A DNA stretch of 64,000 nucleotides from NCBI RefSeq assembly GCF_028858725.1, contig NC_084760.1, forward strand, positions 66,965,867 through 67,029,866. The letters are read 5' to 3'. Each line of letters starts with the position of its first letter. The stretch's first letter is position 1. A model generated the notes under the pieces. That model ran no database searches and was not told the DNA's origin. It saw only the letters and a list, made by a program, of their open reading frames with translations. Below, piece after piece: positions 9,201 through 62,543 of the stretch. This DNA is from Colius striatus (taxonomy: Eukaryota; Chordata; Aves; Coliiformes; Coliidae). The translations under genes and the position numbers were made by a program.

Positions 9201-10900
9201 GGATTTCATTCTCCTCATTTCTCTTACTCCTGTGACTGACTTCATGCCCATCCCCCTGCTGAGAGACAAAAAGATGTTACTCCTTCCCTCCCTTGATCTC
9301 CCATTAATATCATATATTGCATCTCTTTGAGAGTGTGTGTACATTTCAAAAGCTGCTTTCTCTGGGCGTGATACAGATGACTAAGAAAGCAAGCTCAAGT
9401 CGAATGCTCTCAAACAAGTTTAACAAACAAAACAGGATTATATAACTGGGCTGGTATGCGATGACTTGGAGAACTGCAATTACCTCCTAAGAACCAAATA
9501 TGTGGAGGAATCTAATTATCATTTTCCATCCTCTTCTCTGTCATCTGAGACAGCTGGTCTAGTGATACCATTTGAACTCAAATGGGAACATATATATATC
9601 GCAGCTCCAACCATTTTATCTATTCAGAATAATATTAAAGCAGAAAGCGAGGAAGAAATAGTCTAAGCCAAGAAAACCCATTAATCTGAGCCTTGATCTT
9701 TGTGTGTAATATATTTTTGAAGATAAAAATTCCCATGCGACTACCTAGGACAAAAGGCAAAACAGCTTTTGTCTCAGATAAATCTTCTGACATACTTACC
9801 TGTCCTTGGCAAAACTTGCTTTGTTTTGGGGGAAAGGAACTATGCTTTCCTCTCCCCACTCCGCCAGGAGGCTTTGGCAGTCTTTTGGGAATTTGGCAAA
9901 GAGTTTGCTGAGGTGTCACACAAAGTTAGGTCTTGATCTGGGAGAGGAGAGCGTTTGTATGGTGAAGGAGGAGTTATCTGGAAGGGAGAAACAAGGTGGT
10001 GGGCTGCCAGGCATGCTAAGGTTAGTGCAATTGTCAACAAAATTTGCAGGCTACGGAAGGTTTAGGTGTATACATGAGGCACAGAAAAGCAAGCAGGGAG
10101 AACTCAGCACTGGAAAGGGACAGAAATTACTTTATTGAATACAACTTCATCCCAAGTATCTTGTGATTTTCGAATACTGTGTGGCAAGTTTGGGTTGCAA
10201 CTAGTAACATTTGCTATGCTCAGGTGCCTGTGGAAAGGGCAGCTAGAAACCCTCACCTAGGCCTGAAGGGTAGTCTTAGTCAACGTTTTTTCAGGTGTTG
10301 CACAGCACTGTTGGGCTGATCTCTGCATTACTGCGGCGGGTGAGTTCTGACAACTCCAGCCACCCGTGGCCCATAAAGATGACTTTGGATAGCACCAGGC
10401 AAGAAGGGCCGAGAGAAGGAGCAGGGTTCTGGAGGGAAAGTTAATTTAATTTCTCCCTCTGCGTACATTAGTCAGAAAACTAAAGAAACTAATTAAGGCT
10501 GAAGTGAACCCAGCTCTGTGCCCAAGCTGGTCCTAAAGCTGGCGCCTTGATTTCAGGAAGCTGGTGTTAGCTGGTGAAGAATAATTGCAACTTACTTTCT
10601 CCTCCTCACTTTTGTAATGAAATGACCATTGCGAAGAAAACCTTCTCCTACAGCCCCCCTCCTACCTTTCTAAAGGCTGAAATAACTGTTTTACTACTGC
10701 ATGAACTTGTTACAGCACGGGTGCAATAGTTTCACTTTACCAAAATACAGAGCCCTTACATTTCCTCAGACACTGGTGTTTGGGACAGGCAGTCTCTTCT
10801 GCCAGGAGCTGACGGACCTTCTGACTCTGTTAAGAAACACTTATTTAGGAGTTAGGCAAGGCAGGCTCTGGGTTCCCGTGCTTCTCAACTAGCTCCAGGA
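6232..10900. other. Intergenic region between TTC13 and C1orf198
   Basis: About 4.7 kb between the TTC13 3' end and the C1orf198 promoter. All open frames here are short, overlap on both strands and lack recognisable domains. I see no repeat family I can name. A strong splice-donor-like string on the - strand near 9790-9800 is discussed as a finding. The last 500 bases become progressively GC-richer towards the CpG island. Confidence 0.65.
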
Positions 10901-10949
10901 CGTTCTTTTTGGTGCTTCTGGCCCCGGCTCCGTGGGGACAGTATTGCTT

Positions 10950-11930
10950 GCCTCTTCTGGGCAGGAGGGGAAGGGCTGAAGGAGGAGAGAGGAGCGGCAG
11001 GGACAGGGGTGCTGAGGGCCGCGGAGATGGCTATGGCTGCGTGGGTCGGCCGCACGCTACCCCCGGTGGCGACACCGAAGCGAAGGGGGGCGGCGGCCTC
11101 CCTCCCTCCCTCCTTCTCTCAGTAGCGGGTCCCAGACGCGGGGCGGCCGTCGCCTCCTCCAGCCCGAGAGCGGCGGGCGGCGCCGCGAGGGAGGCCGGCG
11201 GGGGCTGCGGCGGGCGCTGGGCGTGCGGGAGGCGGGGTGGCGGCTCCTTTATAGGGAGCGAGGGGAGGGAAGGGAAAGGAGGAGGGCGGAGAAGGCGGTT
11301 CCCATTCCCGCCGTGCGAGAGCGCCCAGCTCGGTGTGTGCGGGGCTGGCCGCGGCGGGGTGGCCATGGCCTCCATGGCGGCGGCAATCGCCGCCTCCCGT
11401 ACGGCGGTGATGAACGGCAACCGGCCGCTGGACGAGCGGGAGCGCAAGCGGTTCAGCTACTTCTCCTCGCTGAGCCCTATGGCACGGAAGATCATGGCGG
11501 AGAAGGAGCGGATCCGCGAGCGCTACGGCCCGGAGTGGGAGCGGCTGCCGCCCCGCCAGCAGGACGAGATCATCGACAAGTGCCTGGTGGAGCCGCACAT
11601 TCAGGCCCGCTACGCCGCCCACCGCGGTGCCTCCCGGCCCGCCGCGCCGCCCGCCTCCTACCCCAGCCTCCGCCTCAACACGGGACAGAAGGTGGTGCAC
11701 TTCGGCGACGAGGTACCGAGCGGCGGGGGTGCGGCCGGCTGAGGAGGCTCGGCCTAAAGGGGAGCCTGGGGGCGGCGGGCGCTTGCCGGCGCCGCCACCG
11801 CGCAGTCGGGGCGGGTGGGGTGGCCGTAGCCTTGCTCCGGCTTCGTGGCTGCTGCTTCTCGAGACGGTGCTCGACCGTGAAGAGTAGCGGGCGCGTCTAG
11901 ACGTTGGCAACAGGGCGGGGGGGGCGGGGG
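10950..11930 (+). promoter_or_regulatory. CpG island and promoter of C1orf198
   Basis: This kilobase is very GC- and CpG-rich, in contrast to the AT-rich flanks, and it covers the start codon and exon 1. It contains GC-box-like ggcggggtgg at 11231-11240 and a TATA-like TTTATAG at 11248-11254, about 110 bases before the start codon, plus a CCCT-repeat stretch around 11098-11115. This is a typical CpG-island promoter with possible TATA assistance. The exact transcription start cannot be read from the sequence. Confidence 0.8.
11365..11712 (+). CDS. C1orf198: C1orf198 coding exon 1
   Basis: 116 codons from ATG at 11365-11367 to the Glu codon before the donor gtaccg at 11713. It ends ...KVVHFGDE in phase 0. 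The exon lies in the CpG island and is Ala-, Arg- and Pro-rich. A second in-frame ATG three codons later could also be used. Confidence 0.93.
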
Positions 11931-26900: not shown

Positions 26901-29900
26901 ATGACCTTGGGAAAATATCTAATCTTTAATAAATATCTAATCTTTAGAAAGGCCAGGTGTTAGTCCATGAATCAAATTCTGTGTAGTCAGCTGCTAACTG
27001 TTTTATAAATATAAAAGTTTATATATGTGGGAAAGCTTTATAAATAATCAGTTGCTGAGTTAACATTTGCACTTTGATGAGAAGCATCTGCATATTAAAT
27101 ACCAGGCATGCGAGACCTCCTAGATCTAGAGTCCCTTTGAACTTAACATGCTCAATAATGTGGGATTCAAGATCAAACACTTCTGGTGAAGATGAAATGC
27201 AAGTAGGATATGGTTTACGCTCAGGCCCGCAGATGCTGTTGCACTTTTATTCAGGAAAGGCCAGGTAATGAAGTGGAATGGGGAAAACATCACCAATCTG
27301 TAACGCACTTCAAAGGTATCTATTAACTTCTTGTGGCAAATGCTGGCATTTGAAATGTCCTTGGAAGTCTTTCAGAACTAATCAGGCCCAACGTGTTGAC
27401 AGCAGAGCTCTAACAGGAGAGACAGTTTTAAAATTATTGTTGTTGTTTGTTCTATTTTACAAACAAAAGTCTAGACATTCGGTTGTTGTTTTCTGACACT
27501 TGATATGGTGCTGTGCTCCTACATAACATAACACTTCTGTGTTCCTCAAAGGGAAGTAAGGCTTAACTTTAAACTGAGAGAGGGTAGATTTAGGTTAGGT
27601 ATTAGAAGTTCTTCCGTGTGAGGGTGGTGAGGCACAGGTTGTCCAGAGGAGTTGTGGATGCCTCATCCTTGGAAGTGTTCAAGGCCAGGCTGGATGGGAC
27701 ATTGAGCAACCTGCTCTAGAGGAAGATGGCCCTCTCCGTGGCAAAGGGATTGGAACTAGGCAATCTTTAAAGGTCCCTTCCAACCCAAACCATTCTGTGA
27801 TTCTATAATTTCATTAGCCCAGAAGTGTCCAGCTCATTGACAATCAAGATGACTGAAGTGGTGGTAAGTAAAATGAACGTTTTGAAGTACTGTTGACTTT
27901 TGGATGGCTTTCACAAGATCTGTGTTATGCTTTAACTGGTGACTTGCTTCCTTGACCCACTGCTACTTCTCAGAAATAAGAGCTATCTGCATTGCAAGGG
28001 AAAACAAAACAAGGCTCTGGGGTAAGTGAAGACACGGGCCTGCTGGAGTTGCTTCCCTTCCTTCAGAGAAGGGCCATTAGAGTTGCAAAAAGCACTTATC
28101 TATGCATACCCATTACATCTAATCCTTTATCTTGGAAGCAGAATTCCAAAGACTCTAATGGAAGGTTGCCTTTTAAACTGCACTGTAAAACTGTTTTTAT
28201 TGCTTTATATTTTCATGGAAAACATCTATGGATTACAAAATGTGTCTACTGTTCTAATGTTTCAGTGCTGTGTGTGCTGTGCATTGCCATCTTGGATGGC
28301 ACTGAGTAACTCAAATACAATGGCTTTCTCTGACTCTTCTGCAGCAGGTCTGGGTCTCTTAGGTTTGCTTGCAGTTCAGCCTTTTAAAATGTATTATTTT
28401 TATGTAGCTACAAAGATGACAGATATTTTTAGAGCAAATGTGAGCTTAGCTGTGGTATCTGCTGTCAGGGAGGTGCCTAGCCTTGGGCAGAGGCATTATC
28501 TATGTGCATCAAGATCCAAAGTTCAAAACTGTGTCTTTGTGAAGGGGTTTGAAATCCTGTTTTTCTTTAACCCCGAACAGAGTCAGATGGAGTTCAGCGT
28601 TGCATCTCTATCCATACAAGAGCAAGGTGGTGCCCAGTTGCAAAATGAACAGAGGCAGCCTGTTAAAGCAGCATCTGGTATCCAAGTCCCTAAATCTTCT
28701 CAGGCCAATAAGAACCCCATCTCAGATGGGTTGATAGCATCCAGAAAGGAAGAGGAGTCCTCTTTCTGGAAGATAAATGCAGAGCGCTCAAAGTTTGAAG
28801 GAGACAAGTCTGAGTTCCAGTCCCTGACCCCCAGCCAGATCAAGTCCATGGAGAAAGGAGAGAAACCCCTTCCCTCCTTTTACAGACAAGAGTCTACTCC
28901 AAAGGAGATGGCAAAAGCTGAGAAGCCCAGCGTAACTAAACCAGAGAAGTCTGTTACCCCCAGCCTACCTGCTGTATCTCTCGAATGGGAGAAACCTCGA
29001 CCCACTCAACTCCCTGCTAGTTCTCTAGATGAATTCTTTCTTCCTGATCCATCACAGGACCTGGCATCTTCTAGGACAAACAAGGAAGATACCGATGGTA
29101 CTATACTTACAGATGCACAAATGCCTGGACAGGTAAGGACTGCGATATCCACTGTCCTTAGATTTAAAAACTATATGGCACGTTCAAATCTGACAAGGCT
29201 GCTCTGGAAGATTAGGAACTCCCTAAAGCATTAAGCCATAGCTCATGCAAATTTAAAGAAGTCTATTTAACCAACATGTTACCTGCTATTGTTTGTTTCA
29301 GTCAAGTGGTTTTGGATATAGTATAGTGTGTAGGATAAAGGCATAATTTAAATAGAGCACCAGAAACACCACTTCCCAGTGCTTTGTCCCAGGCAGCTGG
29401 GCTACTTTCGGATGTGTTTTTTCTTAAAAGTCCAAAATGGAAATGGAATGAGCTTCCAGAATTAGCCTTCTCAATGTTTTTATTTCATTAAAAAATCCAA
29501 ACAACCCAACGACAAAAAATAACCATAAGCAGTTCAGTAGCCAGTTGAGGCTATTTAAAAAGCAGATGCTGATCTGTGAGAAGAGAAAGGGAACAACAGG
29601 ATATGACATGGTGAGCGAAAGAAAAGGAAGAGATCTGAAAGCTGTGAAGTAGAGAAGAGGGTTTTTCTTCACACAGAGCTGTGCAGTTCTGTTTGGCATC
29701 TGTAGCATTGCTCTGGCATAACCCTGGTATTTTATGGTGTGCCTTGAGCACATCACACAGCTTTTTCTCTACCATATTTTCCCAACACTGACTGTTTTAA
29801 ATTTAAAAAAAAAAAATGATGTAAGATCAGAAGGATGCAGGATGAAGTAAATACTTGCAAGAGAAGTAAGTGGTAGCACTTAGGAGGAAACAGTTCTTAG

Positions 29901-34460: not shown

Positions 34461-35342
34461 GAGGCAGATGACACAAAGCTGGGAGGACTGGCTGATTCCC
34501 CAGAAGGCTGTGCTGCCATCCAGCAGGATCTCGACCGGCTTGAGAATTGGGCACAGAGGAACCTCATGAGGTTAAGCAAGGGCAATCACAGAGTCCTGCA
34601 CCTGGGGAGGAACAACCCCATGCACCAGTACAGGCTGGGGATTGACTTGCTGGAGAGCAGCTCTGCAGAGAGACCTGGGAGTGCTGGTTGATAATAAGCT
34701 AAACATGAGCCAGCAATGTGCCCTCGTGGCCAAGAAGGCCAATGGCATCCTGGGATGCATCAAGAATGTGGGCAACAGGTCAAGGGAGGTTCTGCTTCCC
34801 CTCTACTCTGCCCTGGTGAGGCCTCATCTGGAGCCCTGTGTCCAGTTCTGGGCTCCTCAGCTCAAGAGGGACAGAGAACTTCTGGAGAGAGTCCAGCACA
34901 GGGCCACCAAGATGATCAGGGGACTGGAACATCTTTCAAACGAGAAAAGGCTGCGGGAACTGGGGCTGTTTAGTCTGGAGAAGGGGAGACTGAGGGGAGA
35001 TCCTATTAACATTTATAAATATCAAATGGTGGGTGTCAGGAGGTTGGGGCATCCCTTTTTCCTGTTGTCCTTAGTGACAGGACAAGGGGTAATGGAAAGA
35101 AGCTGAAACACAAAAAGTTCCACTCTAAACATAAGGAAAAACTATTTCACTGTTCAGGTGAGGGAGCCCTGGCACAGGCTGCACAGGGAGGGTGTGGAGT
35201 CTCCTTCTCTGGAGGTTTCCAAACCCACCTGCACACGTTCCTGTGTGACCTGATGGAGGGGAACCTGCTTTAGCAGGAAGGTTGGACTGAATGATCTCTA
35301 GAGGTCCCTTCCAACTCCTACCATTCTGTGATTCTGTGATTT
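34461..35342 (+). mobile_element. CR1 LINE, 0.88-kb 3' fragment with reverse-transcriptase end
   Basis: This is the longest and best preserved CR1 copy here. It encodes the C-terminal reverse-transcriptase region: first ADDTKLGGLADSPEGCAAIQ..., then, after a frameshift near 34665, [20 protein letters not shown]... and [20 protein letters not shown]... to about 35106, followed by the CR1 3'UTR and the end 'accattctgtgattctgtga'. The frameshift appears to be a 2-base loss in a 'gagaga' run. It is a 5'-truncated dead copy. Confidence 0.95.
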
Positions 35343-50495: not shown

Positions 50496-50522
50496 TCAGA
50501 TGTTCATTGCCAGGTTGATAAA
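50496..50522 (-). CDS. CAPN9: CAPN9 last coding exon (27 bp with stop)
   Basis: Acceptor ctgatactag on the - strand at 50523-50524, then FINLAMNI and TGA (50498-50496). The human C-terminus is FIHLTMNI. Calpains characteristically encode their last eight or so residues in a separate terminal exon. The short length makes this call rest on the splice site, the phase and the 6 of 8 residue match. Confidence 0.85.
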   Translation of the reverse strand, partial: FINLAMNI

Positions 50523-53500
50523 CTAGTATCAGGAGAAAGATCAACTTTTCAATAAATTATTTCAGGCCCTTCTCGCTCCCCCCCCCTCTCCCCAAATGAA
50601 AGAGAGAGATGTTCAAAAGCCGTGCCTTGCTCTGAATTGACCCCATGCAGGGAAGATGACCTTTGCTCACTTGGCTTTTATGTCTTGTCACTAAGGAGAG
50701 ACCTCTGCCAGCATTTGCTTCTGTGCTTGGAGGAAAGGAGGCAGAGCTCTCCAAGCATCAAATACTGATAACAGTGATGATTTTGTTTTCATCCCAGCAG
50801 TCAATATGGGCTCTCACATTTGCTGAGCCTGGGAATTCATCATGCCTTGCCCTCGGACGCTTTGGGTTAGTGTGAAATGAGAGACAAACCACATATGCAA
50901 CAAGGAGGGAAAGAGAACAGAAGAAAATAAGAAGTCTGTGCTGAGTAGTGTGAGGAGCAGATGATGAACATGCATAGGAGAGGTTGATGTGACCTCCTGG
51001 GGGATTCAGAGATAGTGAAAGACCCCTCTCCTTGTCTGGTGCTTCCCCTTTTGCCCATTGAGAGCTAGTATCTGAGGATGGAAAAAGCAGAGAATCTAGA
51101 AAGGGAGATGGGAACATCAGGACACAGGAACACAGAGCAAAGAAGGAAGGAAACAGTATGGAGGAGATGTAATCTGTGCATGCACTATAAAATCCCAGCC
51201 CTACCAAAACTTACGGCAGATGCCCCCCCGTCTACTCTCATGGACATAAGTGTCTTGCAGAAATATTCCAGTTCTTACAAGAGGACAAAGCTCTAGAGAA
51301 GCCCCATCATTGTCAGTGTTTACAAAGCTGCGCTCATACCTCGCCTATATTCAGGTTAATGAACCCCTTGCTTTTCACACTCAGTGCTTGGAACACTCCT
51401 GAAACGAAAAACAGGACACCGGCACTATAAATACGCTTCATTCAAATTCATACATGAACTCCTCATCCCACAAGGACTGCTGGCTGTGCCAGGGAGAGGG
51501 AGGGCCTGGTACAAAGGTGGACTGCTTGATGGTGCTTGCTGCTCTGACAAAGAAGAAGACGTTTTGCTGACTTGAGGCCTTTGTGCAAGCCTCATTTCAG
51601 GATTGTCTGATTGGGAGAGAGAGTCTTGAATGTGGCTAAACAGTCAGATTTGGATGATACTCTAAAATTAAGTCAAGTAATTTGCATTTTCTTTATATAG
51701 CTTGTTTAACTTTTCTCTCTCAGTAGATTAGTACTTCTACTGCCACAGATAGAACCAGAAAGGAAAGAACTAAACAAACAAAAACCTCAGGCAGGAAAGT
51801 TAATTTTGCTTCTTGTTTAGTGAGTTGCATTTGATTTGAATTTGGAGCCACACTAATGATCACTTCAGCATTTATCTAGGCATTTTACTTATCTCTACTA
51901 CCGCTGCTCTGAAAGGAGAGTAATACCACATGTAAATGATCTGAGATCTAGGGAATCGAGTCTTGAGCCAGAAGTGGACAAGTTATGTGAAAGGTACAGG
52001 AGATAGCTTCCTGAGCACAAGCCAATTACTTCTTTGCATGAGGCAGATGCAATATTTGAACCTTGAACTTCTGTGATCCCAAATCAAGCTCACAGTTGAG
52101 CCACTGAAAGGCTGTAACACGGACTTTGCCAGCATTCCTCACATGCCTGCTACATTGCTGCAGAATTTATGAAGCAGGCACTACTTGCAAGCAGAAATTT
52201 TCCATTAGTAGCAGAAAATGTTTCACTCTGCAGAAGAGCCACCCAGAAAGCAAATGCTAAACACAGATCCTTTCTGTTAGCCATGTACACGTTCTCAGAT
52301 CTTGTGCCATTTGCTCAGCAACATTTTCCCCCCCTTTTTTTTTTGTCAAAGGGGAAGGAATTCCAGAGGAAGAAGATACTCACGACTTGCATTCTCTAAG
52401 CGAATCAGGCAGTTCAGAAAATCATCAAATTCGATCTGGAACCTTTCGTCAGAGTATCGGAGGACAATCAGTTGCAGCAGGTAGTTGTTGAGCTGGTATC
52501 CTGCCCAGAGACATGGGTGTGCAAAAGAAAAGTGAGCAGCCTCCCAGGCCAGGGGGGAATCTGCACATCTCTGCTAACTAAGCTTGAAAACTAATTAATG
52601 GGTGGATGCTCTGTGGCACACGTCCATCCAGAAATGCAATCTGACCACAAAGTTCTTTAAGCTTGTAAGGAATAATAAACTCTGAGCAAGAAATTTTGCA
52701 GTCACTGCAGTTCGTGGTGCATGCACTTTCTGAAGTATGAGAGACCATCCTGTCTCCTGGAAATTTGGAGGGATTTCTGCACTGCTAAGTGCTTCAATAA
52801 AAATAATTTCTGCTGAAATACAAATGCACTGAATGCTCTTCATAACAGTTTACTCACTGTTCCCTCAGCCCTTGTGTGGAGATGGACTCTGAAGTGGTTT
52901 GTTTCAGGATCTAGTTCTGCATATGTGCAGCCCTGGTGAGTTTAACAGAGCTCAATAAAAATGTAAAGATATCTCTGTCTAGAGTGCCTTTCAGGGCTGG
53001 GGATACCTGGGGCGAAACTAGTCCACTCAGTGTCCTCTCTAGATGGTCCTGTCTGGGTTTTAGTAATCTCTGTTCTGGGAGACCTAGCCTGTGTAGTTGG
53101 TTTCGGCCCTCTTTACCCACAGCCCATCTGCCCCACAGGTTTGCCAGATAAAACGCCACGCTTGTCTTACCTGCAGCTTTAAGAGCACTGCGAAGCTCAT
53201 AGGAGGACATGGAGCCAGATTTATCAAAGTCAAATTGAAGGAAGATATTCTGTTAGAAAAGGAGCACGTGGAAAGTTCAGAATTTGCAGATGAAAGGGAG
53301 CAGGGATAGAAAGGCAAGGTGTTTAACCATGTAGTGAAGCATTTAAGAAAGTCAACAGGACTTTGGTCAAGATCTAATCTGATTTTGTAACTGAGGAGTA
53401 AATCTGGGTCCCAATTCTCTTTGTTATATGAATAGGTTGTTGGGAAACTAAAAGAAGTACTGTCAAATTCCAGCATTCAAAACCAGTGAGTTACTCTTGA

Positions 53501-56500
53501 TAAAAAATTCCACGATTTTTAAAAAAAAGGGATTTTATCTGTGAAGGACTTATTACTCTTTGTCTTTTAACTCTTAACTGGCACATCCCCTTAATCTCTG
53601 TCTATGTTTTTTCTCTATAATTCTGAAGGCTAGACAAGTTTATGAAGAGGTTATAATCATCACTTAATCCTTTGCTTCTAGGTATAAGAGGTCTAAACAG
53701 CCACATTCGTGGTACAACCAAAAGAACTGGTACAAAGGGTTTGAATTTTAACATAAATATTAAATAATTATTCAACTGGAGTTACATTCTATCCTTTCAA
53801 CGAGACAACAAACAAGACATTCCCTTGGAATATGAGTTATTTAGAGCTGTTGCCACATCCAGCTTAAAATTTTCCAGGAAATACACATAAAAATCTTCCT
53901 GGAGGATACAAGGGTTTCTCAGGCCCCCTCGTGAAAACACAATGTGTTCTTTGTTGAGAGAGATGTGGCATCAGAAGAAGAGTTAGCCATTTCTGATGGG
54001 CTAGACAAGAAGCAGAGAGCTGCATATTTTGAATGCTTGGGTGAGGCACGAATTCAGAGGAGGCTATTGACGACCATGAGGAAACAATTATGATGTCTTT
54101 ATTTAAATATTCCATCTGTGGCCTGATTCTGCGAGCCTGCTGGTTCTGACTGCCATATACAGTGGCAGGGAAACGTGTTTAAAATTAGAACCAACACTTT
54201 CCCAGACTTCAGTACAGTTGACTCCTGAGAGATCAATAATGGAAACGCAGTGACTTAGGAAATGATTGCTTCCTACTAGTCATGAATCATCACTTTCCTC
54301 CTCTGTACAACAGCAGTAATGGAAAGTCCTTATGTTTCATTTCAATTGGCTTGCTTATTAGTGCCCCTTGCATTCTTTATCCCAAACATAGTTGATTTGC
54401 TCACAAAAATCTCTGTTATTTCCAGAAAACCGTTACAGTTTAGCATCACGGAAAGTGAAGAACGTCTTTGCCTATGCAAACAAGCCCCTGTATTTTAAAA
54501 CATATGTTTTGAGTTTAAATTGTTTCTTGTAACACCCTCGTCTCCATTTTTGTCTGTGCATGCATAATAAAATATGCAGGAAATAACTAATGAAATGTAG
54601 AAACAAATGCAATTAATAATGCCACCTACTAGCCATTTCTTCATTTTTTCCCAGAAAACTTTGAACTCACTAAATTCCAGTTTCCCATTGCCATTGGTCT
54701 GGTAACCTGAATTAAGGAAAATCATTGAACTGAGGTTCAAATTCTGTTTGAATTTTTCAGTGTTGTTCCTTTAAGCAGAAACTGTTAAGTTGCCTGAAAA
54801 GCCTATGGTGTTCCTGAAACTGATACTGGGATTTCTCACGAGGTGCAGCTAGAGCAGTAACAGTCTTAGCTGTGCCTGTGATACTTGGGGAACATTATGT
54901 GATATACAAACACAGCTGAGCAATACAGGCTTCACAGGAGAAAGACAGATTATATTATCTTAAGGGAAGAACAGCTTTGGATGTAAATGGGATATAAATG
55001 ATTCAGAGTATGAAATCACCTGATTAAACTAAATTGCTACTATACTTGAAGGAGTTAGTCAACCAATGTGCTATTCAGGATTTTTATCTAGAGGTCAGGC
55101 CCCGTTGTGGTGGCTCAACGAAAAATTAATGGGAGGTGTGAGGCAAGGCTGGCAAAATCTGATCCTTATGGTCTGGAAAATCTGCCTGTATAGCAGTCCT
55201 GAGGGGTAGTGATCAGATTTCCCTGGCTGTCACCTTACCTGAAGTGTGAGGGTCTTAATCTGTATTTTACTGAGTTACTGATGTCGCCCATGTTGCAGGA
55301 TAGGGCACTTGTTTTGAAATGCTGAATAAGGGATAGGGCCCAATCCCCTTTCCCTTTCCATCTTTACTTGCCAGGATAAAGCCTTTGCTCAGATAGACAC
55401 CAGCTCAGCAAACATTCCCAAAGTTCAAAATGTGCCAAGTGGGGTCTTAGCTAGTGCCTGTTGGTATTTAAGCATCTACACTGGTGACATTATTGAGAGC
55501 ACTCACAGATCCCAAGGATGTAATCAGTCCTGCAAAAACTGTTTTCATTCATCCATGTTCTCCTTCCTGGCATCAGATGGAACTAAGTCTCCACTCCACG
55601 CCACCACACGGTGACTGTAGTCAGGGAATCTGGTGGCATATGACATGGAGGGGACTCTGCCAGTGTTGACTCAGGTTCATACTGGTGTAATTTTGCTCCT
55701 CCATTGCACTCCAAATACTGTGTCCAGAGTGGGATGATTGTGTCTACCTTCCTTGTGCTTCCAAAGCAGAAAAAGAGATGTCTCCCCATTTATTCAAAAC
55801 TATGCAGAGATTTGCTTGGAAGCATTGCAAATCACGGAAACTATTTAGTTATATCCTAAATAGTAATCCTAGGACTGCTGCCATGCTCCTGGGTCAAGTG
55901 CAGACCCTGGCTCTGTCCCAATACCATGTAAGGATGAGATGTGAACATGGACCAGCTCCCAACTAAAGTTTGGTTTTTAAGGGAGGATGCTTAGGACTGG
56001 TCCTCCATTTCTCCTTGCTTATGCATGGTGACTGATCTGCACTGAATTTCAACACTATGGACATGGCTTTAACAGAATAACATCGTGTTGGTTTTGTCTG
56101 TTTTCTCTTAGAAGCACTGGAGAGGACATTACCTCTGCCATGGATTGGAGCAACAAAAATAGAAGATAAGAACTTCTCAGCTGAACAAGCAAGACATAAA
56201 CCAAACGTTGGATAGCTGCCTTGTTAGGATTGTATCTGTTTTGTCTCATGTGGAACAAAATGGTCTATCAGGAAAGCATACTGCACAAAACAGCTCTGAG
56301 GAGAAGACATGCTAAGTGAACTCAACAAGCACCAGAACGTTGCAAAGGATGAATCTGGTGGGGAAGTACATCACCTGATTCCTGGGCAGTCATTTTGCAT
56401 CCCTTCTAGTTAGGCATGATCCAGAACATGCATAATTATCTATAAAGGAAGTCTAGAAAGCTAGCTTAGATGTACACATCTACACACCTACACCACAAAT

Positions 56501-59500
56501 GCCTAAATTTGGGCAGACAAGTCTCGCCCACACGTCTGCTTCCTGGAGTTCCAGGATCTAGCTGAAAGATCAGATTTTCCAACTCTAAATCTAATTGTTA
56601 AAAACCTCTGCAGCTTTGATATCAGTAATTTTCAACATTCCGTTGATCCTTATTTTCTGACCTTAATTTCCTTTCATTCTCTGATGAAATTAACCCTCCA
56701 GACAACAGATTTTCTTGAGTTATCTCTTCTAGGACTTTTTCAAGTAAACCACAGCTTGAAAAATGCACTGTTCTATACAAGAAGTAATCTGAGATTTACT
56801 TTTGGAAGTGCACTCAAGCACTCAAGCAAAAGGATACGTCCATAAGGGAAATGATATTTCGGCATGAAATGATACTTAAGTTCTTGAATTTGATGTTCTT
56901 TGCTGAAAAAGGACAACAATAAAAAAAAGAAGTTATTGGGCAAACCTGCCTTTTATAAACTGAAAGTAGAAAATAGGATTTCATTAAGCAGAGATGGCTG
57001 GCTCTTAGTCCTCGTTGTGGGATGGTCTGTGCACTGGGAGATGAAGGCAGCCCTCACTATAGAGTAATCACAGCCCAGACAGAAGAGGTATTTACAGAAG
57101 ACATGGCAGGAAGATACTGTCCTTGTTTCATAAACCAGGAGATAGGGTTCAGAGAGCAACAGGTTTCCCATTGTATAAAAGGCCTGTAGCAGGCTCATAA
57201 ACTGTTCTTCTAAGTCCCAGCTCAGTGCCTGTCCCTCCACAGCAGAGCAGCAGTGCAATGGAGAGCTGGCCTTGCTGAGCTGAACTGACATGGATCATGC
57301 CAGAGGCCGGGCAAGCTCAGTGGTTAGATCATAGACCAGGTGTTTTCCTGGCTCTGCCCTGGTTGGCTAGAAGACACTAAATGAACTTAATGTCAGCTCT
57401 AAGTTCTTTACAGCCTTTAACTTAGAGTTTACCAGCACTTACTTCTTTTTAATACAGCATTCAGAACATATTGGAGTTCTTCTGCAGACATCTCCATGTC
57501 CTACAGTAAAAAAAGAAGTGTAGCATCTATTACTTGAATGTTTCTGTAATCAGACAAACGGCAAAATATGGAGGTGCTGCTGTGCATAAGGCTGCCTGAA
57601 GGACATCTCAAATGGGAAACATTGGTTTAAAGAAAAATAAACTGTAGCTGGACACAGATCCAAGTAGGTTCACTCAGAGCTTAAGTTCTAGCTTTGGTCC
57701 TCCTGCTTGCTCTCCGAAGACTGCACCCTGCTCCATCTAGACACAAGACATGGTGACATCTGGTGCTCAAACAACGCACTACAATTCAGCTCACTCCTCT
57801 CAAAAGACATAATTTTTGTTTCACCTGGCCCTGGGTGGGAGCAGAAGCATCACTTCTCTTTCTAAATGTTGCTATGACCCACAAGGGTTTTGCACTCACC
57901 TTTCCTGAAATCTGCTCAAAAAGCTCCCGAAACTGCTTTTCTTCTTCAGTTTCTTGAGGGCTTGGGGTTGGGTTTAGAGGCTGCAACATTGACCACATAA
58001 ATCATTATAAGTGTTGTAAAACATGACATTTCTCCTGCACATAGTCCCTCTGTGCATCAGGGGACCACAGTTCATCTTAAAATAAGAATATACATACTCC
58101 TGAACTTTGCCAGACCTGAAGCCTTCCAATCATGTAGCTGCACAAGGGGAGTCTCACCCCCTCATTTTCTTCACCTGGGCAATGGCACAGTGTGCCATTG
58201 CCTCGGCTGTGTCAAAACCAAGAGCACTCATCCTGGAAAACACCTCTCCTCTCCTGCACCATTCAACTTCCCTGGTCCTCCAACAACCACAGTTCTACTG
58301 AGCTCTTTCCAGGGGCACCACCCAGAGATTTCTCACCCTTCTTGACAGTACCAGCCAGAGGTGATTGCACTTGGACACATTACCCAGCACCATCCTGAGC
58401 CTGGAAGCACTTCTAGCTGCCTGTCAGCTGTGTGCCTCAGTGCAGACACAGGGCTGCAGTATCTGGGCTTTGGTCAATGCTGATGAGCAAAGAGATGCAG
58501 CAGAGTAGAGCCACTAGTGTAGTTGGGGATGGCCATGTAAGCAGGGAGGAGTTCTTGGGCCAAAAAAAAAATGGGGAAAAGAAGGCAAGAGCACAGCACA
58601 GGAAGTAAAGAATCAGGCTTTGTTTCTTTGACCCACAGAAGATACAATATAGATGCTATTTATTGTACTGTCACCAGCAGTGACACTGCTTGGCCACTCA
58701 CACCATTTTTGACCATACGCATGTTCCTCACTTCCTTCTGCTCAGGTTTGGATGCAGTATCTTAATGATATAGGGACAGGTAAATAGATTTACTTTGCTA
58801 TTGAATATGGCCCCAAGATCCCAGAATTAGAGATGTACTTGTTAACTGGTCCCTGGAGGATCATTTTTACTAAAGAGGAACATGGGAGACCTTGGCTTAG
58901 CTTGTTTTCATGGGAAGGCACACCATAATCAATGCCTTGTTTGCAGGGATACAGTTAAATAGGAGCTGACTCAGACTCAGCTGCAATTAGTGCTCAGGAA
59001 GCACACCAGGTGATTCAGGGAAAAAAGAACTTAATCATTTCAGTAGGCACACACATGCATAGAGATTTCCTTCCCAAGCCCTGTAGACATTGATAAGTAA
59101 AACAAAGATGTCTGCATGCAAAATGAATGTAGGTCTGTGGACATTCTCTTGCCTCTTATTTTTTTCATAATAAATAAAATGTTAAGAGCTGTGAAGGGCC
59201 ACGTGCCTCCCTGGTGCTCTTCCATGGTGGCTGACACGCGCCTCTGGTGCTAGCTGACTCTGACTGCCTTCAAGCAGATGCAGAAGGATAGCCATTCTGA
59301 TTTGGATTGTTACAGCTCTTTTACCATATTCAGCAGAACTGAACGTTTCAGTCACATACACAAAGCTGGCAATTGTGCAGCATTCCTGTGAAATGAATGT
59401 GTTTTAGCCAAAGACAGCAACAGCAGCGTGCGCCAGCTTCCGCTGACCTACTCTCTTGCTATTTTAACTCTGTAGACTTACCTCAGGGAGATCAATGGCA

Positions 59501-62500
59501 ACGTTCTCATCTAGATCCCTGAAGAAAACAAAAGCTTATTCATTATCTGAAGATATTCAGCTTGAGGTGGAAGTTTGCTTATGATGTTTTCCAGAGGTGA
59601 ATTAAAAAAATGGTTTTTACTGAACAGATTAAGTTTAGGTAAAATTCATCAGACAATCAGGTTTTTGCACTGTTTAAATTTGGCTATAAGCCCTTAAAGC
59701 GGATTTAATTGGGACTCAGGGAGAGCACACCTGTGCATGGTGTCTGCTAAAGACTTAATTTCATTCTTTATTCATTGTGCACAGGCTCAATATCCTTTTA
59801 GAATATAAAACTCATTTGAACAAACTTTAGGAGGAAACAAACACTGCTGCACTCCTGGATTCCCAAACAATATCAGGCAGCTAGCAACTCTTCCTTGTCA
59901 ATCTTTCAGCAGATTCAGTGGCAAACACTATTTCCCCCTCCTAAACTCCTCACAAAAAAAAAACCCAAAACAACCCAGGTTTAGAAAAAATGAACAAATG
60001 AAAAAAAAAAAAACCACAACGGGAATTTTCCACGCCAGGGCTCTGCTATAGGGTACCCAGGAGACAGGCTCTCTCAAGCAGCCACCAGCCCCATGCACAG
60101 GCGAGTACCAGAGGGCTCAGGGCTCTCTGCTCACTTACTCAGTGATGGCCTTCTTCTCAGAAAAAATCCTCAGGCAGAAATCTGCCTCCTGGTGTGGCTC
60201 AAATGTGGTTGGAACAAGAATGTAATCGCCCGGCGGCAGCTTGAACCGGTTAGAGACTTCCCTCAAATTAATGTAGGTTTTGCTTCTGGCCTTGGAGGGG
60301 TGATACCTGAAGAAGTCTTTGCCCAAGTGTCCATCTCTGCCAGGGCTCTAGGAGGGGAAATGAAAGCAGTGCTCCATTGGCTATGGTGTGCTGGGGCCCA
60401 TCCTTACCCACTTTGCAATCACAGAGCCAAACTACCTGGCATAAGCTTCTCCCCTCGCTGTGACTCTGACTCTCATTCCTTCCCCAAGGTGCTCACAGCA
60501 ACCTACTACCTTATGGGAGACACCCATGACCAGTGGTCCTTTCCCGCCCAGAAGACAGCCTAAGAGGGCTCTGGGACATTGTCTTTCTGCTTAAACATTC
60601 TCTGCCTTTAAATATTACTATCCCAGGAGGGATGTCACAGAGCAGTGACAAGATATTTGCCAATTCCAGCTCACTAAGGGACAGGCATCCTTATGTTTGA
60701 TACACCCCGAGGGGCTTGTAAGAAGCAACATCCCCTCTCCGGGAGCCAGGCAGGGGATGAGAGAATCGTGGGGCTGAGGAGTCTATCCTGGGAACCCATG
60801 GCCCTGAAGGGACTCCTAAATCTTCCTCTGAGAGGACTCCATCTCAATCGCATCAAAATCCTCTGCGGGGCTTGATGTAACTCAGAGCAAGGGCTCTAAA
60901 AATACATGATGACTGGCAGGGGTACAAACCCAGGGAAAGATGCTAATGCTAATAGTGTGGCTACTGCACTGTAAAAGCAAAAGAGTACCTCATAAATAGA
61001 GTAGCCAATGGTCAGCATTTCAGCACCAAACTTCTTGAGTTTACGGCGATCCTTTTGCATCAGTGCTGCTATGAATGTGCAGCCATCTTGTCCATCGTCT
61101 TTTTCTGTCAAATGTAGCTTGATTTGTGGATTTGTCCAGAAAGTCTCTGCCAACATAAAGAATATCAGAGAGTTTCTTGCCTCAGAATAATAATACCACC
61201 ACTACTAATACTGAATAGAAAAAAAAAGAAGACAAAAAGGACAATTAAGCTGAGGTTTTGCCCAAATTTAGTTTTTCCATGAGCTGTCAAGCTTCTTTCC
61301 ACTAAGTTCTGCAGAAAATAAGTCAAATCCCAAAGTCCTTCATGGAACTAGGTGTAGAAAAGATTTTAGGTTTGATATTTTATTAAATTATGATGGTTTA
61401 AATAAAGTTGTCAGATGGGATTTCGTTAAAAGTAGATGGTTACAATGATCCCATAGTGCTAGTGCCAGCCTGGAGTAACATGGCTCAGATCCATGATGAC
61501 ACTTCAGAGCCATATAAACATGCTGGCTGAGATGGATTTTTGCCTCATTTTACACTTACTGCAGCAGTTTAAATGACTTATTTGGAGCTGGTCCTGCTCA
61601 TGCAAATGTAAATGAGAGGCAAATCAGATCCAGCAAACCCAAGAGCAAAGAAAGCAGCTCTTGTACTGCGAAGTCTCCAGTGGGACCATACGAACATTTG
61701 ACCCTTCGGCTGGTTCCTGCTAGCTGTACTTGGTGCTGGTGAGGACACACCTTGAGTACTTTGTTTGCTTTCAGGCCCCTCACTACAAGAAAGACACTGA
61801 GGTGCTGGAGTGTGTCCAGAGTTGGGCAAAGAAGCTGGTGAAGGATCTGAAGCACAAGTCTGATGAGAAGTGGCTTGAGGGAACTGGGAGTGTTCAGTCT
61901 GAAGAAGAGGAAGCTGAGGGGAAACGTGATCACTTTCTGTAACTACCTGACTGGAGGTTGTAGTGAGATGGGAGTCAGCCTCTTCCCAGTAATGAATGAC
62001 AAGACATGAGGAAATGAGATCAAGTTGCACCAGTCCAGATGTAGACTGGACATTAGAAAGAACTTTTTCGCTGAGAGGGTCAAGCATTGGAATAGGCTGC
62101 CCAGGGAGGTGGGTGGAGTCCCCATCCCTGGAGATATTTAACAGCCCTGTATGTGAATGCCATGTCTATTTTTAGGTGAGGTGCTGAGGGACATGGGTTA
62201 GTGGTGCGCTTAGCAGTGTGAGGTTAGTGGTTGGATTCAATAATCTTAAAGGTCTTTTCCAACCAAAACGATTCTATGACCCGTCCTGGTCTGCACTCAC
62301 AATCCTGGTAACAGGAAAGGTGGCTGAGGGCAGGTAGAAATTTCAGTGCCTGCTTCTCATTTTCAAAGCAGTATCTGTTTACCTAGGTAATTTCTACATC
62401 CTCCTGCAGTGGATCCCCGGACCCAGCTTCCTTGGTGGATGGTCACCTCCCACTTGTGGGCAGTGCTGTCTTCCAGGGCATCTGGAGTCAGGTTGCAGAT

Positions 62501-62543
62501 CTCAACTTTATCAAAATGCACTTTGAAGTCTTCAAATTTCATC
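50496..62543 (-). CDS. CAPN9: CAPN9 (calpain-9), 3' part: twelve coding exons, partial gene
   Basis: Twelve - strand exons join without a frame break (phases agree at all eleven junctions) to about 372 codons ending at TGA 50498-50496. The product matches human CAPN9 almost block by block: [100 protein letters not shown], then the penta-EF-hand domain. This part covers the C2-like domain III (exons 62543 to 59482) and EF-hands 1-5 (57980 to 50496). EF2 (loop [12 protein letters not shown]) and EF3 ([12 protein letters not shown]) keep canonical calcium ligands. The protease core with catalytic Cys, His and Asn lies beyond 64000. Calpain-9 is a cytosolic Ca2+-dependent cysteine protease of the digestive tract, reported to pair with calpain-8. 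The intron at 54699-56837 is probably U12-type. Confidence 0.96.
51340..51398 (-). CDS. CAPN9: CAPN9 penultimate coding exon, EF-hand 5
   Basis: Acceptor tttcgtttcag, donor gtatga. The first two bases complete Arg, then [19 protein letters not shown]. Human: RVFQALSTKNKEFIHLNINE. EF5 is the dimerisation hand in calpains. 59 bp, ends in phase 0. Confidence 0.92.
52384..52500 (-). CDS. CAPN9: CAPN9 exon, EF-hand 4
   Basis: Acceptor ctgggcag, donor gtgagt. 117 bp: [20 protein letters not shown], then [18 protein letters not shown]. Human: [20 protein letters not shown] and so on. Confidence 0.95.
53171..53249 (-). CDS. CAPN9: CAPN9 exon, EF-hand 3
   Basis: Acceptor ttctaacag, donor gtaaga. 26 codons plus one base: [20 protein letters not shown], then SALKAA. 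It contains a canonical calcium loop [12 protein letters not shown]. Confidence 0.95.
54630..54698 (-). CDS. CAPN9: CAPN9 exon, EF-hand 2 loop
   Basis: Acceptor gttaccag (no pyrimidine tract), donor gtaggt. 23 codons: [20 protein letters not shown], then KWL. With the Asp of the previous exon it completes a canonical EF-hand loop. Human: TSGNGKLEFDEFKVFWDKLKQW. Confidence 0.94.
54699..56837 (-). other. CAPN9 intron with U12-type (minor spliceosome) signals
   Basis: The donor GTATCCTTTT (56837-56828) equals the U12 consensus RTATCCTTT. Near the 3' end TTCCTTAAT (54719-54711) differs from the U12 branch consensus TTCCTTAAC only in the last base, and its branch A is about 14 bases from the exon. 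There is no polypyrimidine tract before the acceptor ttaccag. The intron is 2139 bp, phase 0, and otherwise featureless AT-rich DNA. All other introns in the window have ordinary U2-type ends. Confidence 0.88.
56838..56902 (-). CDS. CAPN9: CAPN9 exon ending at a U12-type donor
   Basis: Acceptor ctttttcag at 56903-56904. Two bases plus 21 codons: (T)[21 protein letters not shown]. The last Asp is the first ligand of the EF-hand 2 loop. The donor reads gtatccttttg, an exact U12-type 5' splice site. This exon has no long ORF of its own and was found by the protein match. Confidence 0.93.
57443..57500 (-). CDS. CAPN9: CAPN9 exon, EF-hand 1
   Basis: Acceptor tactgtag, donor gtaagt. Nineteen codons plus one base: [19 protein letters not shown]. 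It corresponds to human DMEVTAEELEYVLNAVLQKK. Confidence 0.94.
57900..57980 (-). CDS. CAPN9: CAPN9 exon, linker and EF-hand 1 start
   Basis: Acceptor atgttgcag, donor gtgagt. 27 codons: [20 protein letters not shown], then FEQISGK. Both ends are phase 0. A Pro-rich linker leads into the first helix of the penta-EF-hand domain. Confidence 0.95.
59482..59518 (-). CDS. CAPN9: CAPN9 37-bp micro-exon, linker between domain III and EF-hands
   Basis: Acceptor tttcttcag, donor gtaagt. One base plus 12 codons, [12 protein letters not shown], matching human RDMDGNVDIDLPE. It is too short for ORF detection but fixed by both splice sites, the phase and the match. Confidence 0.93.
60139..60347 (-). CDS. 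CAPN9: CAPN9 exon, C-terminal part of domain III
   Basis: Acceptor cctcctag, donor gtaagt. It encodes [20 protein letters not shown], then [20 protein letters not shown] and [20 protein letters not shown]. 209 bp, ends with two bases (GA) of a Glu codon completed by the next exon. Confidence 0.96.
60989..61146 (-). CDS. CAPN9: CAPN9 exon, domain III
   Basis: Acceptor ttggcag, donor gtactc. It encodes [20 protein letters not shown] through [20 protein letters not shown] to YSIYE. 158 bp, ends in phase 0. Confidence 0.95.
61735..62280 (+). mobile_element. CR1 LINE 3' fragment inside a CAPN9 intron (antisense to the gene)
   Basis: In + orientation: 'ggtgaggacacaccttgagt' (reverse-transcriptase end), 'ggtgctggagtgtgtccaga', 'ctgcccagggaggtgggtgg', 'ggtcttttccaaccaaaacg', ending 'attctatgac'. 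The end differs from the 'attctgtg' copies, so it probably belongs to another CR1 subfamily. It lies within the intron between the exons at 62383 and 61146. Confidence 0.9.
62383..62543 (-). CDS. CAPN9: CAPN9 exon: end of protease core and start of domain III
   Basis: Acceptor cactcag on the - strand at 62544-62545, donor gtaaac at 62382. The first G completes the Trp of the conserved EFW-MAF motif from an exon outside the window. It encodes [20 protein letters not shown] through GGCRNYL. 161 bp. Confidence 0.94.

Follow-up and report, generated by a model that had tools for sequence, protein, structure and literature searches.

A probable U12-type intron behind the first calcium ligand of the second EF-hand of CAPN9 in Colius striatus, with counterparts in calpain and sorcin genes of the same genome

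Calpains as minor-intron genes and the position at which their EF-hand loop is split are both already known. Calpains are named among the minor-intron families in the accessible part of PMC8767276, where knock-down of U6atac in rat cardiomyocytes raised the retention of a Capn2 minor intron given as "intron 14", and the accessible part of PMC9177970 describes calpain genes as splitting the EF loop just after loop codon 1. The latter splits are those of human genes, and the terms "U12" and "minor intron" are absent from the main text. On a wider scale, U12-type introns were found at 3.5% at Ca2+-site exons versus 0.2% at Zn2+-site exons (PMC10853796, accessible part), and minor introns have been described as spreading by gene-family duplication, for example in the SCN and CACNA1 channels (PMC2831892 and PMC6865273, accessible parts). 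The present analysis concerns an intron of the calpain-9 gene (CAPN9) of Colius striatus in a stretch of 64,000 nucleotides (nt) of contig NC_084760.1 (assembly GCF_028858725.1, forward-strand positions 66,965,867 to 67,029,866), called the window and numbered from its first base. From its splice signals and those of its homologues, this intron is very probably of the U12-type GT-AG class, removed by the minor spliceosome and handed down within the calpain/sorcin branch of the penta-EF-hand family.

The CAPN9 intron resembles that of rat Capn2 in being a predicted minor intron of a classical calpain and differs in gene and species (PMC8767276, accessible part). It resembles the introns of PMC10853796 in lying beside a Ca2+-ligand exon, whereas that work, in its accessible part, gives a human-wide fraction and has neither "calpain" nor "CAPN" in its main text. 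The likeness to the SCN and CACNA1 channels, which are other genes, would be that a single ancestral U12 intron outlasted the duplications. Among the papers examined for calpain together with U12-type intron or minor spliceosome, PMC8767276 was the only one that treats a calpain as a minor-intron gene. No paper was found pairing CAPN9 with "minor intron" or "U12-type", and minor-intron catalogues may well list CAPN9. The words "calpain" and "CAPN" are absent from the main text of PMC7367187, PMC2831892, PMC6865273, PMC6717393 and PMC10639083, and "sorcin" and "SRI" from that of PMC10639083, PMC6865273, PMC2831892 and PMC8767276.

The gene model and the elements of the intron are as follows.

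50496..62543, minus strand: C-terminal half of CAPN9, 12 exons, a single open frame of 372 residues and then a stop
57500-57443, minus strand: exon f, carrying the first EF-hand, placed by homology
56838..56902, minus strand: exon g, 65 nt, ending in ISLMD, which gives the helix leading into the second EF-hand (EF2) and its first ligand Asp, placed by homology
54699..56837, minus strand: predicted U12-type GT-AG intron of 2139 bp, separating exons g and h in phase 0, placed by signals and exon fit
56828..56837, minus strand: 5' splice site GTATCCTTTT, which follows the GAC codon for Asp1 of the EF2 loop and agrees with the U12 consensus at 10/10 positions
54711..54719, minus strand: putative branch-point motif TTCCTTAAT by consensus count; the base at 54712, 14 nt ahead of exon h, is the presumed branch A
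54699..54710, minus strand: 3' end of the intron, TCAGGTTACCAG, with the acceptor AG at 54700-54699, read from the sequence
54630..54698, minus strand: exon h, 69 nt, 23 residues, starting TNGNGKLEF, the remainder of EF2, placed by homology

The predicted 372-residue protein found its best match in the mu-like calpain 1qxp (E 2.5e-163), and 370 residues were matched to calpain 1 (7x79, E 2.4e-118). For the naming of the gene, pieces of the catalytic domain encoded in the neighbouring 10 kb, together with the first window exon, were compared to calpains with solved structures. Human calpain 9 scored highest (224.2 bits for 1ziv and 216.7 for 2p0r), versus 188.2 bits for calpain 1 (7x79) and 159.9 for calpain 8 (2nqa). 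The name CAPN9, given in the original prediction, is supported by this ranking and was retained.

The position of the intron was fixed by its exons. The junction LMD-TNGNGKL aligned without a gap to LMDRDGNGKL of calpain 1, LMDTDGSGKL of calpain 3 and MLDSDGSGKL of calpain 2, and the terminal Asp of exon g was therefore deduced to be loop position 1 of EF2. Only one GT/GC-AG pair among those tried within 30 nt of the junction gave a gapless protein; the other junctions were rejected, none of them yielding a gapless frame. The predicted coordinates were exact, the first base being 56837 and the last 54699 on the minus strand, and the sequence supports the placement of the intron directly after the first ligand Asp of the EF2 loop.

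The consensus used for scoring the U12 5' splice site is that of general knowledge and of the original prediction. The donor, GAC-GTATCCTTTT, matched it at 10/10 positions, as had been claimed, and was the sole 10/10 site among the 6690 GT sites of both window strands, two others scoring 9/10. It agrees with the pattern of the U12 GT-AG subtype, GTATCCTTT (10/10 to GTATCCTTTT). The motif TTCCTTAAT scored 9/9 against TTCCTTRAY and 8/9 against TTCCTTAAC. Its A at 54712 lies 14 nt before exon base 54698, at the distance predicted, and the gap between motif and exon is 12 nt; the optimum for the distance from branch motif to acceptor is put at 11-13 nt in the accessible part of PMC6717393. A 9/9 branch motif with its A 9-21 nt upstream was found at only 2 of the 9825 AG sites of the window. 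By the U2 consensus the same donor scored 4/9.

The controls within the gene were the 10 other introns read within the window, the upstream introns being left out. Their donors scored 2-8/10 for U12 and 5-8/9 for U2, and the branch motif reached 6/9 at best before the 11 other CAPN9 acceptors, so that by their signals these 10 introns look U2-type. The highest of the U12 scores belongs to the donor of exon b, GAG-GTACTCTTTT (window 60989-60980, minus strand), with 8/10 for U12 and 5/9 for U2. A second U12 intron at this site was considered and rejected, as the branch motif before exon c reaches only 6/9 and the pyrimidine content of that acceptor is 0.85; GTACTCTTTT is probably a weak U2 donor.

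The possibility that a U12-like donor and branch motif occur together by chance, with no role, was weighed by two counts. Under a looser pair rule, with an 8-base donor core and AT starts allowed, 114 kb gave three donor/branch pairs: the CAPN9 intron and two on the other strand which use one common branch motif. These two further loose pairs speak for chance. A Markov-1 simulation of a single 114-kb strand, repeated 40 times, yielded on average 0.17 full donors and 0.025 strict donor/branch pairs per run. The next 50 kb upstream of the window also contain four GTATCCT cores on the minus strand, without exon placement. The motifs by themselves are not decisive, and their weight lies in the coincidence with homology-fixed exon ends. 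The exact fit to both exon ends, repeated in seven further genes, contradicts chance already through the paralogues and leaves it a negligible probability.

The paralogues were found in the same genome by searches with the calpain C2-like family (24 matches) and the calpain-3 penta-EF-hand segment (22 matches). CAPN9 and seven paralogues gave eight genes; calpain-type matches on contigs C1, C7, C14 and C15, which had no nearby match to the calpain-3 penta-EF-hand segment, were left out. The first four paralogues listed were named by exon similarity and neighbourhood, and each is given with the score of its branch motif.

L038: CAPN8-like gene, adjoining CAPN2 on the opposite strand; 8/9
L039: CAPN2; 8/9
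L040: CAPN3; 7/9
L041: CAPN1- or CAPN11-like gene; 8/9
L042 and L043: two divergent calpains on contig C3; 7/9 each
L050: sorcin, 191.6 bits to sorcin versus 142.1 to grancalcin; 5/9

The two divergent calpains scored higher with calpain 3 (71.8 bits for L042, 69.6 for L043) and calpain 1 (69.1 and 70.1) than with calpain 13 (59.6 and 63.9); they may be CAPN13 and CAPN14, a guess from their place. No grancalcin-like gene apart from sorcin was seen among seven matches. In CAPN2, which was looked through for another U12 intron that would explain the rat "intron 14", three U12-like donor cores were observed, one at exon g and two further downstream without exon placement, and the sequence after exon e is GTGTGAGTG.

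An intron was found at the identical codon, in phase 0 and with the junction D-GTATCCTY, in 8/8 of the intron-bearing calpain and sorcin genes read, CAPN9 included. The eight donors scored 8-10/10 for U12 and 4/9 each for U2, and the branch A lies 10-16 nt before the exon in all eight introns. Ten control donors from 6/7 of the paralogues scored 2-6/10 for U12 and 5-8/9 for U2, each control being the GT close to the exon end with the highest U2 score, a choice which favours U2. The original prediction had named orthologous introns with U2-type signals as contrary evidence; in the homologues examined, which were paralogues of the same genome and not orthologues, all eight donors were GTATCCTY, and the prediction was not refuted. 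The comparison indicates that the U12-type intron is common to the calpain/sorcin family and not specific to CAPN9. Together with the 10/10 donor, the 9/9 branch motif and the homology-fixed exon ends, the 8/8 homologous donors bear out the predicted U12-type class of the CAPN9 intron.

Several observations weigh against this assignment. The U12 and U2 scores are consensus counts and not published weight matrices. Some copies have a weaker branch motif, with 7/9 for CAPN3 and both divergent calpains and 5/9 for sorcin, and in L043 and L050 it is tied with a motif at another distance. On the acceptor side, the pyrimidine content at -23 to -4 is 0.70, within the 0.50-0.85 spanned by the CAPN9 acceptors. 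The predicted absence of a polypyrimidine tract thus held in part: the last 12 nt (TCAGGTTACCAG) are mixed, the upstream pyrimidines sitting largely within the branch motif, whereas the content as such is average for the gene. A further AG, at 54708-54707 on the minus strand, intervenes between this motif and the acceptor in use. With it the exon would begin 6 nt beyond the branch A; it was rejected as the acceptor because it adds 8 nt and shifts the frame. Finally, the numbering of the rat intron does not agree with ours. Capn2 is taken here to have 21 exons, and counted from the 3' end the homologous intron is then number 16. With "intron 14" in the accessible part of PMC8767276, the identity of the rat intron with the CAPN9-type intron is not established, and either a numbering difference or a second Capn2 minor intron would account for the mismatch. 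The homologous intron of the bird CAPN2 is U12-type by its donor class.

The average pyrimidine content and the weak branch motifs of some copies would suit an intron which only resembles the U12 type and owes its removal chiefly to the U2 spliceosome, or else to both machines, as reported for some sites in the accessible part of PMC10853781. The donors argue in the other direction, as the U2 score of 4/9 in all eight copies is below that of all 20 control donors (5-8/9), and the donor core is kept in 8/8 genes. We allow predominant or shared U2 splicing a very slight chance and retain the U12-type assignment. The AG at 54708-54707 is also a possible source of mis-splicing.

A different arrangement was observed in the ALG-2 gene (L049 and L069, 138.2 bits to ALG-2) and in L057, which we take to be peflin-like. 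In each, a phase-1 intron with a GTGAGT donor and a pyrimidine-rich acceptor is placed 11 nt upstream of where calpains and sorcin have the U12 intron; by these signals it appears U2-like and a second intron site within the same EF-hand. A third arrangement is that of L044 (G000:C16:5145230-5145550, minus strand), a 300-codon frame which is intronless across the penta-EF-hand region and, once the higher-ranking two-domain 1qxp entry is set aside, is most like calpain small subunit 1 (217.4 bits). This calpain-small-subunit-like frame is perhaps a retrocopy.

That intron positions differ between these branches could suggest that U12-type introns arose at the calpain/sorcin codon independently in several genes. 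Such repeated insertion is given only a slight chance: codon, phase and donor class are identical in 8/8 genes, and the evolution of U12 introns in vertebrates is described as dominated by type conversion and loss, not gain (PMC2831892, accessible part). The preferred history is that of an ancestral U12 intron which would predate the divergence of sorcin and calpains, was presumably passed on through the duplications, and kept its U12 class in each intron-bearing copy read. The eight U12 copies, the two genes whose U2-like intron sits at a distance of 11 nt and the one intronless gene offer a natural set on resistance to U12-to-U2 conversion.

The roles of the small nuclear ribonucleoproteins in minor splicing are established. 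U11 and U12 would recognise GTATCCTTTT and TTCCTTAAT, and U6atac, U4atac and U5 would then splice to the AG found 14 nt downstream of the branch A, skipping the nearer AG, so that the first Ca2+-ligand Asp would be joined to the remainder of the EF2 loop. In a search limited to U6atac, the genome gave six matches to the U6atac family, the best at 136.5 bits, which speaks for a minor spliceosome in the organism. Experimentally, the closest case is the rat Capn2 intron retained on U6atac knock-down (PMC8767276), and it counts in favour of the assignment.

Translation into the retained intron adds VSFCLSA and then stops (seven intron codons), and from this we infer that retention would remove everything after Asp1 of EF2, that is, EF2 to EF5. 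We hold removal by the minor spliceosome and the common ancestry of the copies to be inferences of the same kind. If exon h is skipped, 23 residues are lost with the reading frame intact; if exon g is skipped, the frame shifts. The original prediction, that retention or skipping would destroy EF2, is accordingly refined into a loss of EF2 to EF5 on retention, a 23-residue deletion or a frameshift. The outcome of retention is likened to that of a human CAPN9 frameshift, for which loss of the second to fifth EF-hands is described (PMC2912385, accessible part). If the assignment is correct, several calpains and sorcin of this genome need the minor spliceosome at one identical codon for their calcium-binding half, and a lesion of minor splicing could lower the complete forms of many calpains together.

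Phase-0 U12 introns are under-represented, and a route of U12-to-U2 conversion by way of a G at position -1, the wobble base, has been proposed (PMC7367187, accessible part). In all eight copies, all with a U12 donor, the -1 base is C or T. A G would be barred there because the wobble base belongs to the invariant Asp codon, for which GAC or GAT is needed to supply the first Ca2+ ligand. It is possible, with the balance of probability clearly on the other side, that the ligand constraint at EF-loop position 1 locks the intron in the U12 class. Such a lock would explain why 8/8 copies stayed U12-type despite the under-representation, and could add to the U12 excess at Ca2+-site exons (PMC10853796, accessible part). 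Counting against it, G is missing at -1 in 8/20 of the U2-like control donors, as placed by script, so that a -1 G is evidently not required for U2 splicing.

Eight other EF-hand loci (L001 to L008) were translated and none was used. Calmodulin-like frames were seen in L001 and L004, which are one place, and in L003, and other EF-hand-like frames in L007 and L008; L002 had no frame of more than 60 residues, and in L005 and L006 no frame was clearly that of an EF-hand in the orientation translated. Two long plus-strand frames of the window (10849-11739 and 28026-29231) are assumed to be C1orf198-like; C1orf198 is a gene that neighbours CAPN9 in human. Two further segments, at about 62280-61600 on the minus strand and 34576-35103 on the plus strand, are presumed to be remnants of CR1-type long interspersed nuclear elements, one of them lying within a CAPN9 intron.

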